This document shows, piece by piece, positions 11,057 through 64,000 of a stretch of 64,000 bases of DNA. The notes under the pieces are model-generated. The model made no database searches. It was not told the DNA's origin and saw only the letters and a list, made by a program, of their open reading frames with translations. The number at the start of each line of letters is the position of its first letter. Position 1 is the first letter of the stretch. Source of the DNA: Candidatus Pantoea bituminis (GTDB taxonomy: Bacteria > Pseudomonadota > Gammaproteobacteria > Enterobacterales > Enterobacteriaceae); NCBI RefSeq assembly GCF_018842675.1, contig NZ_JAGTWO010000004.1:806001-870000 (forward strand), written 5' to 3'. The translations under genes and the position numbers were made by a program.

Positions 11057-12002
11057 CTACTTACTGCATGTTGGCAACCAATCTGCCTCGCTGTCTTCGT
11101 GCAGCGTAAGATTAGTTTGTATGCCGTTATTCGTTCGGCGTTTGAGCAGCACGCGTTCATACTCTTTCAGCGTCTGTGGCACAGCCTGGCCGAAAGCTGT
11201 CAGGCTGAGCGGATGCTGATGGCCGCGTGATTCCATAAACGACAGATACGCATGATAGAGATAGCGCTTCGGATTTATCGGGCGAATGTTTGCATTGCCG
11301 ATAAACAGCCCATTAGGCGTGCTCAACGGCATCAGGTAGCCACAGAAATCGACCAGTGGATCAGCCTGTCGCTTTATCTCCAGCGCTTCGCCGGAGGATT
11401 GCTGCGCCTGCAACAGCTCGCGCGCTTCGTCAGGTGACGCGAAGCGCTGCATCAGGTGGCGCACGATAACCGCCAGCTCACCGGCAATCTTCTCCAGCAG
11501 CTGCGGATCGCGCTCTTTCGCCGGTATTACTTCCGGGAAGGTCAGGATTACCCGGCGACGCGACACGCCGCCGCCGCGATCGCTGAAACGTGTTCACCGC
11601 TAGAATCACCGCGGGGATATGAGTTGAATAGGCGTCGCGATAATTGGGATCAATGGCGACTGCATCGCCGCCGGTAATCGCCTTAATACCCGCGCCGTCG
11701 TCGCTCCATTTCTCCTGATCGGGCAGAATAATCAGCGAGAATCCCACCACGCTGGCACGCTCCCGCGATGATTCCAGCGTGTCGATGGTAGCTGACGTGG
11801 TGTTATCGCGGCCAGCGAGCAGCGTAGCGATCGAAGCCATGACGCTTTTCCCGCTTCCACCTGGACCAGTTACCTCCAGGAACATCTGCCATTCATAGCG
11901 GTTTGCCAATACCATAAATAACGCCGCGAGGATGCGCTCCCGCTTGTCGTGATTGTGTCCGGCAGCCCTGCGTAACGTGAGTCCGTCGCTGCTGTGGGCC
12001 AT
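11057..12002 (-). pseudogene. P4 alpha-type primase/helicase, C-terminal remnant
   Basis: Only the helicase end remains. The part encoded by 12002 down to about 11585 holds LTLRRAAGHNHDKRERILAA, then Walker A GPGGSGKSVM, LIILPDQEKW and AGIKAITGGDAVAIDP. These are hallmarks of the superfamily-3 helicase domain of P4-like alpha proteins. The part below about 11575 continues in another frame as RRRVILTFPEVIPAKERDP to the usual C-terminus. At the junction the family pattern AVNNN-MRF is broken: AVN is followed too soon by RFSDRGGGVS, as if about 11 bases were lost. The whole N-terminal primase half is missing, cut off where the Sid-like remnant begins. The gene is non-functional. Confidence 0.82.
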
Positions 12003-55288: not shown

Positions 55289-55913
55289 ATGAAACGCACA
55301 CTTTTTGCTTTGCTGATACTGATGAGTTCGACGGCTTTAGCGCATCCGCACAGCTTTATCGATATGAAAACTGAATTAGTCGTTGATGGTGATCATTTTA
55401 CCGGCCTGAAAATGACCTGGACGATGGATGAGATCACCTCCGCTGATCTGTTATATGACGCGGGTGACGCGAAACCGGGTTCGGTGATCTGGAAAAACTG
55501 GCGGCAGGCGTCATGGCTAATGTATTGGGCCAGCACTATTTTTCTGAAATCTGGCACAATAAACAGCGGGTGAAATTTTTGAATTTACCAAAAGAGTATC
55601 AGCTCTCACGTAACGGTCACAAAGCGGTGCTGGAATTCATCCTGCCGCTGGCAGAACCCCCATACTCAGCGGCCAGCGCTTCGAAATCCTGACATTCGAT
55701 CCCACCTATTTTGTCGATATGTTTTATGACAATGCAGGCGCGTTGAGCTTGCCAGCCAGTTTGCAGTCGCGCTGTGCATTTGACCTTAACACGCCCAAAC
55801 CAAACGATTCACTGAAGCAATATGCCTTGTCCCTGGACAAAGCAGACGCGCCGCCGGAAGAAGTCGATTTAGGACGGCAATTTGCCCAAACGGTGATATT
55901 GACATGTCATTGA
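55289..55913 (+). CDS. DUF1007-family periplasmic protein (two one-base frameshifts)
   Basis: 208 residues after repair. A signal peptide (MKRTLFALLILMSSTALA) is followed by HPHSFIDMKTELVVDGDHFT, the DUF1007 signature. Five A at 55493-55497 and five C at 55657-55661 each need one more base; the joined frame reads VIWKKLAAGVMANVLGQHYF and LAEPPILSGQRFEILTFDPT. The gene overlaps the NicO transporter start by 10 bases, a pairing common in Gammaproteobacteria. It probably supplies or senses metal for the transporter, but the metal is not known. Confidence 0.82.
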
Positions 55914-58196: not shown

Positions 58197-59000
58197 TTAG
58201 CGCTTCAGCGCTTCACTCAGTTCTTCACGCATAGAAGAAAGCATCGCTTTTACGACACGAGGATTACCCGCTACGAGGTTACCTGAGTGCAGATAGCCGT
58301 GATTACCCGTGAAATCCGTGACCAAACCGCCTGCTTCACGCACCAGCAAATCGCCTGCTGCGAAATCCCACGGCTTAAGGCCGATCTCGAAATAACCATC
58401 AACGCGACCTGCTGCAACATACGCTAAATCCAACGCAGCTGAACCGGTGCGACGGAAATCGGCACACTGAGTAAAGAGTTTGGTAACGATGTTCATGTAA
58501 GTTGGCGCGTGCTGCTTCAGTTTGAACGGGAAGCCGGTTGCCAGAATAGTGCCATCCAGATCGCGAGCGATGCTTCCGCGCAGACGATATCCATTAAGCT
58601 GTGTGCCTTGACCACGTACTGCGCTGAACAGCTCATTGCGCATTGGATCGTAAACCACGGCAACTTCGGTGCGGCCTTTGATGCGCACAGCGATAGAAAC
58701 AGAGAAATGGGGCAGACGTTTGATGAAATTGGTGGTGCCATCCAGCGGATCGATTACCCATTGAATGTCCTGATCTTCGCCCGCCAGTTCACCGCTTTCT
58801 TCGGTGATAATGGTGTGCTGCGGATATGATTTACGAATAACTTCGATAATCAGGCGTTCTGCGTCGCGGTCAACATTGGTAACGAAGTCGTTGCTGCCTT
58901 TCTGGCTAGCCTCGACGGCGTCCGGGGTTTCATAATTCTTGGCAATTAAATTTCCGGCCTTGCGCGCTGCGCGCACGGCGATGTTGAGCATCGGATGCAT
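58197..59000 (-). CDS. suhB: Inositol monophosphatase SuhB
   Basis: 267 residues. The metal site is in ITEESGELAG and IDPLDGTTNFIKRLPHFSVS; the second metal-binding block is WDFAAGDLLVREAGGLVTDF. It is a Mg-dependent phosphatase and also a Nus-factor partner in ribosomal RNA antitermination in E. coli. It is divergent from trmJ, as in E. coli. Confidence 0.96.
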   Translation of the reverse strand: MHPMLNIAVRAARKAGNLIAKNYETPDAVEASQKGSNDFVTNVDRDAERLIIEVIRKSYPQHTIITEESGELAGEDQDIQWVIDPLDGTTNFIKRLPHFSVSIAVRIKGRTEVAVVYDPMRNELFSAVRGQGTQLNGYRLRGSIARDLDGTILATGFPFKLKQHAPTYMNIVTKLFTQCADFRRTGSAALDLAYVAAGRVDGYFEIGLKPWDFAAGDLLVREAGGLVTDFTGNHGYLHSGNLVAGNPRVVKAMLSSMREELSEALKR

Positions 59001-59120: not shown

Positions 59121-59873
59121 ATGCTGCAAAATATTCGAATTGTGCTGGTGGAAACCTCCCACACCGGCAACATGGGCTCCGTTGCGCGCGCCATGAAAAC
59201 CATGGGTTTAACGAATCTTTATCTGGTCAATCCGCTGGTGAAGCCGGATTCCCAAGCTATATCCCTGGCCGCAGGCGCCAGCGATGTTATTGGCGAAGCC
59301 AAAATCGTTGACTCGCTCGACGAGGCGATCGCCGGATGTAGCCTTGTTGTTGGCACCAGCGCACGCTCACGTTCGCTGCCGTGGCCAATGCTCGACGCGC
59401 GCGAATGCGGCATCAAAAGTGTGGAAGAGGGCCAGCAAGCGCCGGTCGCGCTGGTGTTTGGTCGTGAGCGCGTGGGGCTAACTAACGACGAATTGCAGAA
59501 ATGCCATTATCACGTCGCGATTCAGGCTAATCCAGAGTACAGCTCACTGAACCTGGCGATGGCGGTACAGATCATTGCCTATGAAGTGCGCATGGCATGG
59601 CTGCAGGCGCAAGAAAAAGCCGATCCAAAACCAGAGTATCAAGCGTCACCTTATCCGCTGGTCGACGATCTTGAGCGCTTTTATCAGCACATGGAACAGA
59701 TGATGCTGCGCAGCGGCTTTATTCGTGAAGCCAATCCGGGCCAGGTAATGAGCAAATTGCGTCGCCTTTATACCCGTGCGCGTCCAGAACGTGATGAGCT
59801 CAATATTTTGCGCGGCATGCTTTCTTCATTTGAGAAGCGTAAAAACAGCAAGGATGGCGACGATAATAGTTGA
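59121..59873 (+). CDS. trmJ: tRNA (cytidine/uridine-2'-O-)-methyltransferase TrmJ
   Basis: 250 residues of the SPOUT family: [20 protein letters not shown], then [20 protein letters not shown], and [20 protein letters not shown], the knot that binds SAM. It methylates position 32 of several tRNAs. It is followed by the isc-type control region of iscR. Confidence 0.96.
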
Positions 59874-59940
59874 GTAAATTACTTGGTTAAATACTTGACT
59901 AAAATACTCGGTTAAATAGTTGACCAATTTACTCGGGAAT
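59866..59940 (+). promoter_or_regulatory. Three tandem IscR-type sites at the iscR promoter
   Basis: There are three 25-base units at an exact 25-base period starting at 59866, 59891 and 59916. Each reads ATA(G/C)TTGA...TACT(T/C)GG, the IscR type-1 pattern. They cover the region upstream of iscR, giving negative feedback by cluster-loaded IscR as in E. coli. Confidence 0.78.
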
Positions 59941-60002
59941 GTCAGACTTCGGACATCTTTCGCTAATCCTCCGATAACCGGACGCTATTGAGGTCGTACG
60001 CT

Positions 60003-60500
60003 ATGAGACTGACATCCAAAGGACGTTATGCCGTTACTGCTATGCTGGACGTTGCCCTTCATTCCCATGAAGGCCCGGTTCCGCTAGCTGATATTTCTGA
60101 GCGTCAGGGCATTTCGCTGTCGTATTTGGAGCAGTTATTCTCGCGTTTACGTAAAAATGGCTTAGTGGCCAGTGTTCGCGGCCCGGGTGGCGGTTATCTG
60201 CTTGGTAAAGAGTCGAATGCCATCGCGGTAGGCGAAGTGATCACGGCGGTTGACGAATCTGTCGATGCCACTAAATGTCAGGGCAAAGAAGGTTGTCAGG
60301 GCGGCGAGCGTTGCCTGACTCACGTTCTGTGGCGCGATCTGAGCGTGCGCATTAGTGAGTTCCTGAACAACATTACGCTGGCTGAATTGGTCAACAATCA
60401 GGAAATCCTTGATGTTGCCGATCGTCAAAATGCGAATGACAACCGTCGCTTCCAGAAGCCGCGTGCTCAGGAAATTAACGTTAACCTGCGCGCCTCTTAA
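60003..60500 (+). CDS. iscR: Iron-sulfur cluster regulator IscR
   Basis: 165 residues from the ATG at 60003 ([20 protein letters not shown]); an earlier frame from 59988 is not used. The Rrf2-family winged helix is followed by the cluster ligands C92, C98 and C104 in [20 protein letters not shown] with the nearby His107. Holo-IscR represses its own operon; apo-IscR activates suf. It is intact here although most of the isc operon is absent. Confidence 0.96.
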
Positions 60501-60588: not shown

Positions 60589-61755
60589 ATGAAATTACCG
60601 ATTTACCTGGATTACGCCGCAACCACGCCGGCCGATCCGCGTGTGGCCAGCAAAATGATGCAATTTTTGACGCTGGACGGCACCTTTGGTAATCCGGCCT
60701 CGCGTTCTCACCGTTTTGGTTGGCAATCTGAAGAAGCGGTCGACGTTGCGCGCAATCAAGTGGCGGAACTGGTTAATGCCGATCCACGTGAAATTGTTTT
60801 CACCTCCGGCGCGACTGAATCAGATAACCTCGCCATAAAAGGCGCTGCCCATTTTCATCAGGCGCGCGGCAAACACATCATCACGAGTAAAACGGAACAC
60901 AAAGCGGTGCTCGACAGTTGTGAACAACTTGAGCGCGAAGGCTTTGACGTGACCTATTTAACGCCTGCCGCTAATGGCATCATCACGTTGGATGCGCTGC
61001 GCGCTGCGCTGCGTGATGACACCGTGTTGGTGTCAATCATGCACGTCAATAATGAAATTGGTGTCATTCAGAATATCGCTGCCATGGGCGAGTTGTGTCG
61101 TGAGCGCGATATTCTCTTTCATGTTGATGCCACACAAAGCGTCGGCAAATTGCCCATTGATCTCAGCAAACTAAACGTCGATTTGATGTCCTTTTCAGCG
61201 CATAAAATCTACGGCCCGAAAGGCATTGGCGCGCTCTACGTGCGGCGTAAACCGCGTATTCAAATTGCGGCCCAGATCCATGGCGGCGGTCATGAGCGCG
61301 GTATGCGTTCGGGAACGTTGCCGGTGCACCAGATTGTCGGCATGGGTGAGGCGTACCGCATCGCCCATGAAGAGCGTGAACAAGAGATGGCGCGTTTGCA
61401 GCAACTGCGCGATCGTTTATGGCAAGGGCTTAGCGTGCTCGATAATGTCTACCTCAACGGCGATCTGCAGCAAAGTTCTGCCAATATCCTTAATGTCAGC
61501 TTTGCCAATGTTGATGGCGAATCGTTGATCATGGCCCTAAAAGATTTGGCGCTCTCCTCGGGTTCAGCCTGTACTTCTGCCAGTCTTGAACCTTCTTACG
61601 TGCTGCGAGCCTTGGGCCTGAGCGACGAACTTGCACACAGTTCGCTGCGCTTTTCGCTTGGCCGTTTTACCACTGAAGAAGAGATCGATTACGCCATCGC
61701 ATTGGTGCAAAAATCGGTCACACGTCTGCGCGCCTTGAATTCTGCTGCACGCTAA
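60589..61755 (+). CDS. iscS: Cysteine desulfurase IscS, short C-terminus
   Basis: 388 residues versus 404 in E. coli. The start [20 protein letters not shown] and the PLP Lys in [10 protein letters not shown] are normal, and the active Cys is in [20 protein letters not shown]. The protein then ends [20 protein letters not shown] plus RALNSAAR. The E. coli tail WEMYKQGVDLNSIEWAHH, which contacts IscU, is missing, and no frame downstream restores it. It likely still feeds sulfur to tRNA thiolation and other acceptors. No iscU follows. Confidence 0.94.
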
Positions 61756-61919
61756 TCGTTAAGCCGCATGATTCTGGAAAGGGCGCTATTGTCCGGGATG
61801 CGCTGGCATCGCCTGAAATAATCTGTTATCAGGATTGTCTGCACATTCCATGTAACACCTTCACAGGCCGTACCTACACTTTGCCTGGATGACACTTATA
61901 ACGTATACGGAGCTTCGCG

Positions 61920-63206
61920 ATGACCACGCAACCGATGAACATCACTCTTAGCAACCAGCCCGCCGATGCGCGCTGGGGCGAAAAAGCCATTCTGACCAGC
62001 AACGACAGCGGTATGACGCTGCATATTACCGGCGCGGATGCGCTGATGACGATTCAACGCGGCGCACGCAAAATTGATGGTCAGGGCGTTCGCCATGTCG
62101 CGCTGGTCGGTGAGGGCTGGCACCTCGAACAGTGCTGGGCTTTCTGGCAAGGCTATCGTGGACCAAAAGGCAAACGTCAGGTTGACTGGCCGACACTGGG
62201 TGAGCATGAGCAAGCTGAGTTTGCGCGCCGCCTGAAAATCGTTGATTGGGTACGTGACACCATTAACCTGCCAGCGGAAGAGTTGGGACCAGAAGATTTA
62301 GCGCACAGCGCAGTGGATTTGATCAGTGAAGTGGGCGGCGATGCTGTGAGCTATCGCATTACCAAAGGTGAGGATCTGCGCGAGCAAGGTTACATGGGCT
62401 TGCATACGGTTGGACGCGGTTCAAATCGCCCACCCGCTTTTCTCGCTCTGGATTTCAACCCAACCGGCGACGACAAAGCACCGGTTTACGCTTGTCTGGT
62501 CGGCAAAGGTATCACCTTTGATACTGGCGGTTACAGCATGAAGCAGAGCAGCTTCATGGACTCAATGAAATCCGATATGGGCGGTGCGGCAACGGTGACT
62601 GGCGCGCTGGCGATGGCCATTTCACGCGGTCTTAATAAGCGCGTAAAACTCTATCTTTGCTGCGCGGATAACATGGTCAGCAGCAATGCCTTCAAACTGG
62701 GCGATATCATTCGCTATCGTAACGGCAAATCCGTTGAGGTCATGAATACCGATGCGGAAGGGCGTTTGGTCCTGGCCGATGGCCTGATTGATGCCAGCGA
62801 GCAAAAGCCGACTTTACTGATTGATGCGGCAACGCTGACCGGTGCGGCAAAGACGGCGCTCGGCAACGATTATCACGCCCTGTTTACTTTTGATGATGTC
62901 ATGGCGCAGTCACTGATGGGCAGCGCAGTCAGTGAGAACGAGCCGTTCTGGCGCTTGCCGTTGGCAGAATTCCATCGTAGCCATTTGCCATCAAACTTTG
63001 CCGATCTGAACAATATTGCCAGCCCAGCACATGCTGCGGGTGCCAGCAGCGCGGCTGCTTTTCTGTCGCATTTTGTCAGCGATTATCAGCAAGGTTGGCT
63101 GCACATTGACTGCTCCGCCACCTATCGCAAAGCCGCAGTGGATCAGTGGTCTGCGGGTGCAACCGGTCTTGGCGTACGTACGCTGGCAAACCTGTTACTG
63201 AAGTAA
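61920..63206 (+). CDS. pepB: Peptidase B (M17 aminopeptidase)
   Basis: 428 residues (E. coli 427). M17 metal and catalytic motifs are present: [35 protein letters not shown] and [25 protein letters not shown] [15 protein letters not shown]. It releases N-terminal residues from peptides. It normally sits at the far end of the isc operon; here it follows iscS directly after a 164-base gap with no gene. Confidence 0.95.
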
Positions 63207-63254: not shown

Positions 63255-64000
63255 ATGAATCGTCTTGAAGAAGTGCTGAAGCTGGCGGCAACCGAGCCTG
63301 CGCATCGTCCCGAGTTTTTCCAGTTATTGCTGGAAGCAGATGCCTGGGTGCCAGGTGAAAGCACTGCACAGCAGCTGGATGCCAATACACCGGTCGATTT
63401 GCAGCACTGGGAAAAAGAAGATGGCAGCAGCGTCATTCCGTTTTTCACCTCTGAACACGCGATGAGTGAAGCCATCAGTGCTGAACAAGCTTATCTGCGT
63501 TTGCCGGTTCGCACGCTGTTCGAAATGACACGTGGCGAAGCGCTGTTTCTGAACCCAAAATTGCCGAGCGGTAAAGAATTTTCTGCGGCTGAGATCAGCC
63601 ATTTGCTGGGCGAGCAGGGCGATGCGCTGAGCCAGCAAACAGTGTTGGAAGGCGGGCATGCGCTGCTGTTATCAGAAGTGGCGGAGCCGCCTGCGCAGAT
63701 GATCGATTCTCTGACCCAGCTGTTCAGCAAGTACAAACAGGTGCGACGCGCCTTTGTCGCCAGCATTCGTGAAAGTGCGGAAGAAGAGCCAAATCTGCTG
63801 ATTGGCATCGAGGCGGAAAGCGATATTGACGCCATCATTCAGGCTGCAGGCAGCGTAGCGACTGATACCTTACCGGATGATGCGCCCATCGATATTTGTG
63901 AAGTGACGCTGGACGATCGCGGCATCAGCCACTTTTTTACCGCCCACATTACGCCATTTTATGAACGTCGCTGGGGCAGTTTCCTGCGCGACTTCAAGGG
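63255..64000 (+). CDS. sseB: Enhanced serine sensitivity protein SseB (partial, runs off window)
   Basis: At least 248 residues with no stop before 64000 (E. coli 258). The start is MNRLEEVLKLAATEPAHRPE at the ATG at 63255. The conserved ending SHFFTAHITPFYERRWGSFL is reached, so only a few residues are missing. It follows pepB, as in E. coli. Its function is unknown beyond affecting serine sensitivity and possibly cytochrome-related phenotypes. Confidence 0.9.
   Translation, partial: MNRLEEVLKLAATEPAHRPEFFQLLLEADAWVPGESTAQQLDANTPVDLQHWEKEDGSSVIPFFTSEHAMSEAISAEQAYLRLPVRTLFEMTRGEALFLNPKLPSGKEFSAAEISHLLGEQGDALSQQTVLEGGHALLLSEVAEPPAQMIDSLTQLFSKYKQVRRAFVASIRESAEEEPNLLIGIEAESDIDAIIQAAGSVATDTLPDDAPIDICEVTLDDRGISHFFTAHITPFYERRWGSFLRDFK

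Follow-up and report, generated by a model that had tools for sequence, protein, structure and literature searches.

The view of ISC as the housekeeping system and SUF as the stress system of cluster building derives from E. coli and its close relatives. In E. coli K-12, the genes iscU, iscA, hscB, hscA, fdx and iscX lie between iscS and pepB. Most bacteria have a single cluster system, usually SUF, and enterobacteria are special for having both, according to recent work (PMC11559095). The combination of SUF with a lone iscS is already known from elsewhere. Mycobacterium tuberculosis is described in a review as having a SUF operon and a standalone iscS (PMC8300815), and the insect symbiont Moranella endobia has a complete suf operon and iscS with no iscU of its own, the latter being kept by its partner only (PMC3620526). 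The case presented here differs from M. tuberculosis in phylum and gene context, and in that the loss recurs within a group where most other members with large genomes have kept the operon; it differs from the symbiont genome of M. endobia in that it is also found in genomes of 4–5 Mb. The larger result here is the recurrent loss of ISC among enterobacteria, together with a matching change in IscS.

In the window, i.e. the whole 64,000-nucleotide stretch of DNA that was analysed, the isc locus matches the E. coli iscRSUA-hscBA-fdx-iscX region in position and in the order of its flanking genes, and the IscR ligands, the IscR-like sites of type 1 and the catalytic residues of IscS are shared too. 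Unlike in E. coli, no operon gene remains beyond iscS, CyaY is missing and the IscS protein is without the IscU-docking helix. Upstream, suhB (58197–59000), whose product scores above the cut-off of its NCBIfam model, lies on the opposite strand; all further features are on the forward strand. The conserved flank gene trmJ (59121–59873; ORF list, NF011694 above cut-off) is followed by three tandem 25-base matches to type 1 IscR sites (59866–59940), the gene for the cluster-sensing regulator IscR (60003–60500; NF008110 and TIGR02010 above cut-off) and iscS (60589–61755), which encodes a cysteine desulfurase of 388 aa identified via TIGR02006 and by alignment to E. coli IscS. The iscR frame has an ATG start at 60003, while the ORF list opens the same frame at a TTG at 59988. 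On the downstream side, the conserved flank consists of pepB (61920–63206; NF003450 above cut-off) and sseB (63255–63998), the latter cut at the window's end and recognised by tblastn with 66% identity to E. coli SseB.

Between iscS and pepB remains a spacer of 164 bases (61756–61919; ORF list, tblastn), at the site of iscUA-hscBA-fdx-iscX in E. coli. The E. coli proteins IscU, IscA, HscB, HscA, Fdx and IscX gave no tblastn match at the locus (E 1e-4), and under relaxed settings the spacer yielded chance-level matches only, with no relic recognised in the window. An earlier note on this DNA, made from its letters, had described an isc operon cut to iscR-iscS, with pepB starting 164 bases after iscS, none of the missing isc genes in the gap and the order of iscR, trmJ, suhB, pepB and sseB kept. 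This description holds: the reduction is confirmed, and the gene order follows from the ORF list with NCBIfam names for all genes but sseB, which tblastn supplies.

The loss extends to the whole genome of the window, a 5.2 Mb assembly in 5 contigs that is 95.96% complete and whose nearest named relatives, judged by neighbouring proteins, are Pantoea (93% identity over 930 columns with Pantoea sp. Eser). Genome-wide searches found no match to NifU_N/IscU, in a search that was positive in the E. coli control, and none to CyaY (frataxin), the C-terminal domain of HscB or the ISC-type ferredoxin. Matches to A-type carriers number three, read as ErpA, SufA and NfuA, compared to four in each of three IscU-bearing controls. 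A complete sufABCDSE operon is present (L105, 11576 to 5998), followed by ldtE-like and pykF-like genes as in E. coli; SufB and SufD were called by model and the other suf genes from their translations and gene order. The suggestion of the earlier note that the cell builds clusters another way, probably via SUF, is supported, and iscU, hscB and fdx do not reappear elsewhere in the genome and HscA is absent at the locus. The genome encodes a SufS and a SufE of its own and has one TusA match, and its thiI falls into two overlapping frames, for which an indel is the probable cause. In the window itself, a gene at 55289–55913 that is intact as one frame in three Pantoea relatives falls into several broken frames; together with the split thiI, this suggests indel errors in the assembly.

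Across the genus of the window, NifU_N was absent from 55 of 61 genomes, including the window's own. The six proteins found in the remaining genomes (G195, G160, G159, G187, G178 and G179; L256–L261) are 274 aa long and score 467–473 bits with the NifU model (cut-off 273.3), whereas their 119–123 bits with the IscU model fall short of the 192.4 needed there. IscU is therefore found in 0/61 genomes of the genus and a Nif-type NifU in 6/61. Among the best 80 of 586 named loci, the reduced operon occurs in eight (Pantoea anthophila, Pantoea sp. Eser, P. stewartii, Pantoea sp. IMH, Erwinia persicina, an uncultured Erwinia, an Enterobacterales MAG and Lonsdalea quercina), while 70 have iscU after iscS. 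The latter include a Mixta, Tatumella saanichensis and Erwinia sp. OLFS4, which has kept the long operon except for a recognisable iscX. A check of other Erwiniaceae, proposed in the earlier note, thus gives a mixed answer: the reduction extends to some Erwinia, but it is no family-wide trait, with one Mixta and one Tatumella locus keeping the whole operon. L. quercina, which groups with other genera in the marker tree, has a reduced isc as well. Two further loci deserve mention. In L073, one of the best 80, the contig stops just past iscS, and in L086, a Thiohalobacter MAG, iscA lies directly 3′ of iscS with no iscU between them; since its IscS tail is retained, iscU may be located elsewhere in that genome.

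To cover the GTDB family, 149 genomes were sampled, approximately one per genus, of which 93 have and 56 lack NifU_N. One of the 93, G141, has its sole NifU_N match in a frame of 295 aa that is read as NifU, and this genome was treated as ISC-lacking. SufB is present in 55/56 NifU_N-lacking genomes, the sole exception being a genome of 0.2 Mb, and in 59/93 NifU_N-bearing ones. CyaY was found in none of the 56 as opposed to 85 of the 93. Many of the 56 are small genomes, yet among the 25 without IscU that entered the suf promoter comparison below, 17 are at least 3.5 Mb in size. In a set of 30 genomes, HscB is absent from all 27 that lack IscU (the window's and G141 among them) and present in the three IscU-bearing controls, which are also the only ones with an ISC ferredoxin above cut-off. 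The 5.4 Mb genome G022 (L194) has IscU, HscB and the ISC ferredoxin and no match to CyaY, i.e. frataxin can be absent without ISC loss. That CyaY goes together with ISC has been reported in a general way (PMC4440780).

The number of losses was estimated on a tree of the markers TrmJ, PepB and SuhB obtained by a quick search. Of 125 loci entered, 93 had at least two of the three markers, and nine long-branched or near-duplicate rows were left out, resulting in 84 rows. This tree requires five changes of the IscU label, and its starred branches force five as well. However, placing the twelve IscU-lacking rows on the Erwiniaceae side in a single clade is not rejected (p-AU 0.42), and the claim is accordingly set at four or more: the best tree has ISC lost five times, and four losses are the minimum, provided that it was never regained.

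Relics of the lost genes were searched for in the iscS-pepB spacers of 25 IscU-lacking genomes with relaxed settings and a tiny database. Most matches lie at the level of chance: flanking genes, which served as an unplanned control, reached E 0.13 in this search, and only iscX matches below 0.01 were used. The clearest is an iscX piece with internal stops in G119 (E 2.6e-9); weaker pieces were found in G004, G054, G104, G103 and G026 (E 5e-4 to 6e-3, tiny database), four of which are close kin on the tree. A decaying isc operon is preserved in G039, a genome of 2.4 Mb (L119, 4757–9722). Here, an open, tail-less iscS is preceded by degraded remains of iscR and followed by those of iscU, iscA and fdx (E 1e-7 to 7e-4 within a stretch of 11 kb), which lie in the order of the operon and at roughly the distances expected; the fdx piece is also detected by its model (E 5.9e-4).

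How has the loss of its partners affected IscS? The window's protein scores 688.6 bits with TIGR02006 (cut-off 643.2), the match ending at 382 of 402 model positions, and it aligns with E. coli IscS up to residue 384 of 404, with a stop after four more residues. The PLP lysine and the catalytic cysteine are kept and the C-terminal IscU-docking helix is absent, the last five codons (61738–61752, forward strand; C-terminus alignment) replacing the 21-residue tail (384–404) of IscU-bearing relatives. In the E. coli crystal structure, IscU contacts IscS at helix 309–316, at Glu347, where helix 11 ends, and on the C-terminal helix (379–391), and IscS without residues 376–404 does not bind IscU (PMC2854127).

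The tail follows IscU closely in relatives. Among the best 80 of 586 named loci, all 70 in which iscU follows iscS possess it, and all eight reduced operons have none or a different one; L073 and L086 have it as well. In the family sample, 90 of the 93 NifU_N-bearing genomes show an IscS match that extends at least to E. coli residue 401, the other three being G028, which is 49% complete, G096, where the match is partial, and G141. A long IscS match is present in 50 of the 56 NifU_N-lacking genomes, and only one of these 50, G064, matches to at least residue 401, with a degenerate tail. The six IscU-lacking genomes without a long IscS match measure 0.2–0.6 Mb, showing that IscS is not indispensable after ISC loss.

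The remaining surface of IscS was compared as mean identity to E. coli in 65 IscU-bearing and 30 IscU-lacking proteins, the latter set leaving out three rows of small symbionts and including five genomes of at least 2 Mb from outside the tree. H104, K206 and C328, the catalytic residues, are kept in 30/30 IscU-lacking proteins. Helix 379–391 drops from 0.87 in IscU-bearing to 0.39 in IscU-lacking proteins and the tail 392–404 from 0.86 to 0.06, as compared to 0.92 and 0.80 for residues 1–375 and 0.96 and 0.83 for the other IscU contacts (309–316 and 347). By contrast, the TusA contacts W45, E49, D52, R55, R220 and R237, defined from the E. coli crystal structure, stand at 1.00 and 0.99. These residues could also be needed by IscS itself; the protein as a whole is more diverged when IscU is lacking (0.80 vs 0.92 over 1–375). 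At the site defined by mutations for CyaY and IscX, four of ten positions are relaxed in IscU-lacking proteins, i.e. R116 (0.47), E227 (0.40), R223 (0.67) and R225 (0.73), and the other six remain at 0.90 or above; in the window's IscS, positions 225 and 227 are occupied by Q and A. Among the otherwise invariant columns, R112 is the most relaxed, being kept in 7% of the 30 IscU-lacking proteins (0.07). It falls into the stretch 88–116 (window 60850–60936), in which Y90, F89, K92, K95, K101 and R116 are strongly relaxed too, and which, judging from this pattern of substitutions, looks like a partner surface. Columns of a partner set make up four of the ten most relaxed columns (0.8 expected, P 0.005) and five of the top 20 (P 0.014), although this set was our own choice, includes position 89 from the ThiI list and does not carry the main argument.

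The possible recipients of IscS sulfur differ in how regularly they are retained. TusA is encoded by 30/30 genomes examined. ThiI is above cut-off in 25/30, where one of the two pieces stands for the window's genome; in the group of 27 without IscU it is degraded in G029 and G051, a weak match in G079 and G118, and split in G147 and the window's genome, so ThiI is not a universal reason for keeping IscS. The earlier note had proposed that IscS is kept for tRNA thiolation. The presence of the TusA gene, the kept TusA contacts and the missing IscU-docking tail support this proposal without proving it. The shortened IscS, the missing CyaY, the recurrence and the altered suf promoter are additions to what that note contained.

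Taken together, it is highly probable that isc was cut to iscR-iscS in an ancestor of the window's genus, that SUF became the sole general cluster builder and that IscS was kept as a persulfide donor. After the trimming of the operon, SufS-SufE and SufBCD would build the general clusters and SufA, ErpA and NfuA would deliver them. The persulfide of IscS would still be needed, above all for thiolation of tRNA U34 via TusA and, in most members, for ThiI. Without IscU, CyaY, IscX and Fdx, IscS lost its C-terminal docking helix and relaxed part of the CyaY/IscX surface, with its TusA contacts staying fixed. IscR, matured by SUF, would sense cluster supply and repress iscRS, and apo-IscR could act on suf. 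The sequences directly show which genes are absent and present, how IscS has changed, that the IscR ligands are conserved and that the loss recurs; we infer that cluster building falls to SUF entirely, that TusA and ThiI still receive sulfur from IscS, and that suf is under IscR control.

Other readings of the short operon fare less well. The isc genes might exist and simply have been dropped or misassembled in the window's genome, which is 95.96% complete and has its probable indels in thiI and the 55289–55913 gene. Yet IscU is missing from all 61 genomes of the genus, the same reduced order is seen in four named Pantoea records among the best 80 of 586 loci, G146 of the same genus has a short IscS of the same kind, and the stretch aligns unbroken, at 82% identity, to two named relatives, which makes such an artefact vanishingly improbable. 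Hardly more credible is that the short operon, seen as it is in several branches, is ancestral, and that iscUA-hscBA-fdx-iscX was inserted between iscS and pepB in E. coli and others: the long operon is found in the same order in Aeromonas, Vibrio, Shewanella and Pasteurellaceae loci, making a gain in E. coli implausible, and degraded pieces of the lost genes persist in some IscU-lacking genomes, which refutes this reading for the lineages concerned. Both explanations were rejected on the evidence of relatives, long-operon outgroups and relics.

It is unlikely, if less so than these two, that the tail-less IscS still takes part in cluster assembly by giving sulfur to SufE/SufBCD, to a Nif-type NifU or directly to apo-proteins. 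A functional standalone iscS beside SUF in M. tuberculosis, as the same review has it (PMC8300815), and the NifU of 6/61 genomes of the genus would fit such a role. However, the window's genome has its own SufS and SufE, no NifU_N protein occurs in 55/61 genomes of the genus and the conserved partner surface is that of TusA, although a side role of IscS in cluster assembly is still conceivable.

Among enterobacteria with genomes of 4–5 Mb, ISC has been given up on four or five occasions, and every such loss is a natural experiment on what the ISC-specific parts are for. The IscS tail tracks IscU almost without exception, and the fixed surface points to TusA as the partner that retains IscS. 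The E. coli scheme is also a risky guide for interpreting iscR mutants in Pantoea, Lonsdalea and some Erwinia. One such mutant has been studied in P. stewartii, and ‘iscU’ does not occur in the main text of that paper (PMC8882988). As to recurrent ISC loss in Erwinia, Pantoea, Sodalis and enterobacteria at large, no description was found in the open-licence literature, though genome-survey tables may contain one.

IscR probably stayed on as sensor of the cluster supply. The window's protein keeps the cluster ligands C92, C98, C104 and H107, and these residues plus E43 are kept in all 27 IscU-lacking rows with a usable IscR and in 65/65 others. The three tandem type 1 IscR-like sites of the window's iscR promoter have 5, 3 and 3 mismatches, those found by the same scan in E. 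coli 1 and 3, using a consensus and no shuffle control; we take them to be the expected autoregulatory site.

In E. coli, sufA has a type 2 IscR site with a Fur site directly after it. The promoters compared came from 25 IscU-lacking genomes (of 57 with G141) and from 36 IscU-bearing ones plus E. coli, chosen by the coordinates at hand. The E. coli type 2 consensus is matched with up to five mismatches in 11/37 IscU-bearing and 1/25 IscU-lacking promoters. Loss of IscR control at suf was considered and rejected, because the promoters themselves reveal an element that has diverged and is nevertheless conserved. Scored with a simple anchor, this IscR-like element at sufA is present in 35/37 IscU-bearing and 19/25 IscU-lacking promoters, the latter comprising 17/17 genomes of at least 3.5 Mb and 2/8 smaller ones. 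At the anchored Fur position, a 13-base core with at most two mismatches occurs in 26/35 IscU-bearing vs 2/19 IscU-lacking promoters, and with at most three in 34/35 vs 5/19, with anchor and cut-offs picked after inspection of the promoters. The window's genome has five mismatches in this core. Exceptions are G020, near the Pantoea clade, and G119, which lack IscU and have two mismatches each, and one IscU-bearing genome with six. Of the only five independent contrasts on the tree, a mean of 3.6 have Fur-site decay accompanying the loss of IscU and 0.4 or 0.0, depending on the cut-off, have the opposite, a number of contrasts too small for the association to reach significance. The usual decay of the Fur-like site at sufA in IscU-lacking genomes suggests, as a lead rather than a result, that SUF has turned housekeeping. 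We lean slightly towards a repeated and predictable switch in enterobacteria, in which the suf Fur site decays under maintained IscR control and SUF rises from stress to housekeeping system, CyaY is lost jointly with HscBA, Fdx and IscX, and IscS, by shedding its tail, becomes a dedicated donor of sulfur to TusA. If this is true, ISC-less genomes offer natural SUF-only experiments inside the very order behind the ISC-housekeeping/SUF-stress model. At the position of the E. coli Fur site, the suf promoter of the window's genome (L105, ~11615–11645) carries the inverted repeat GTGATC-ACGCA-GATCAC, a changed version of which is found in G146; it is possibly another operator, or its outer arms may have been kept as promoter elements.
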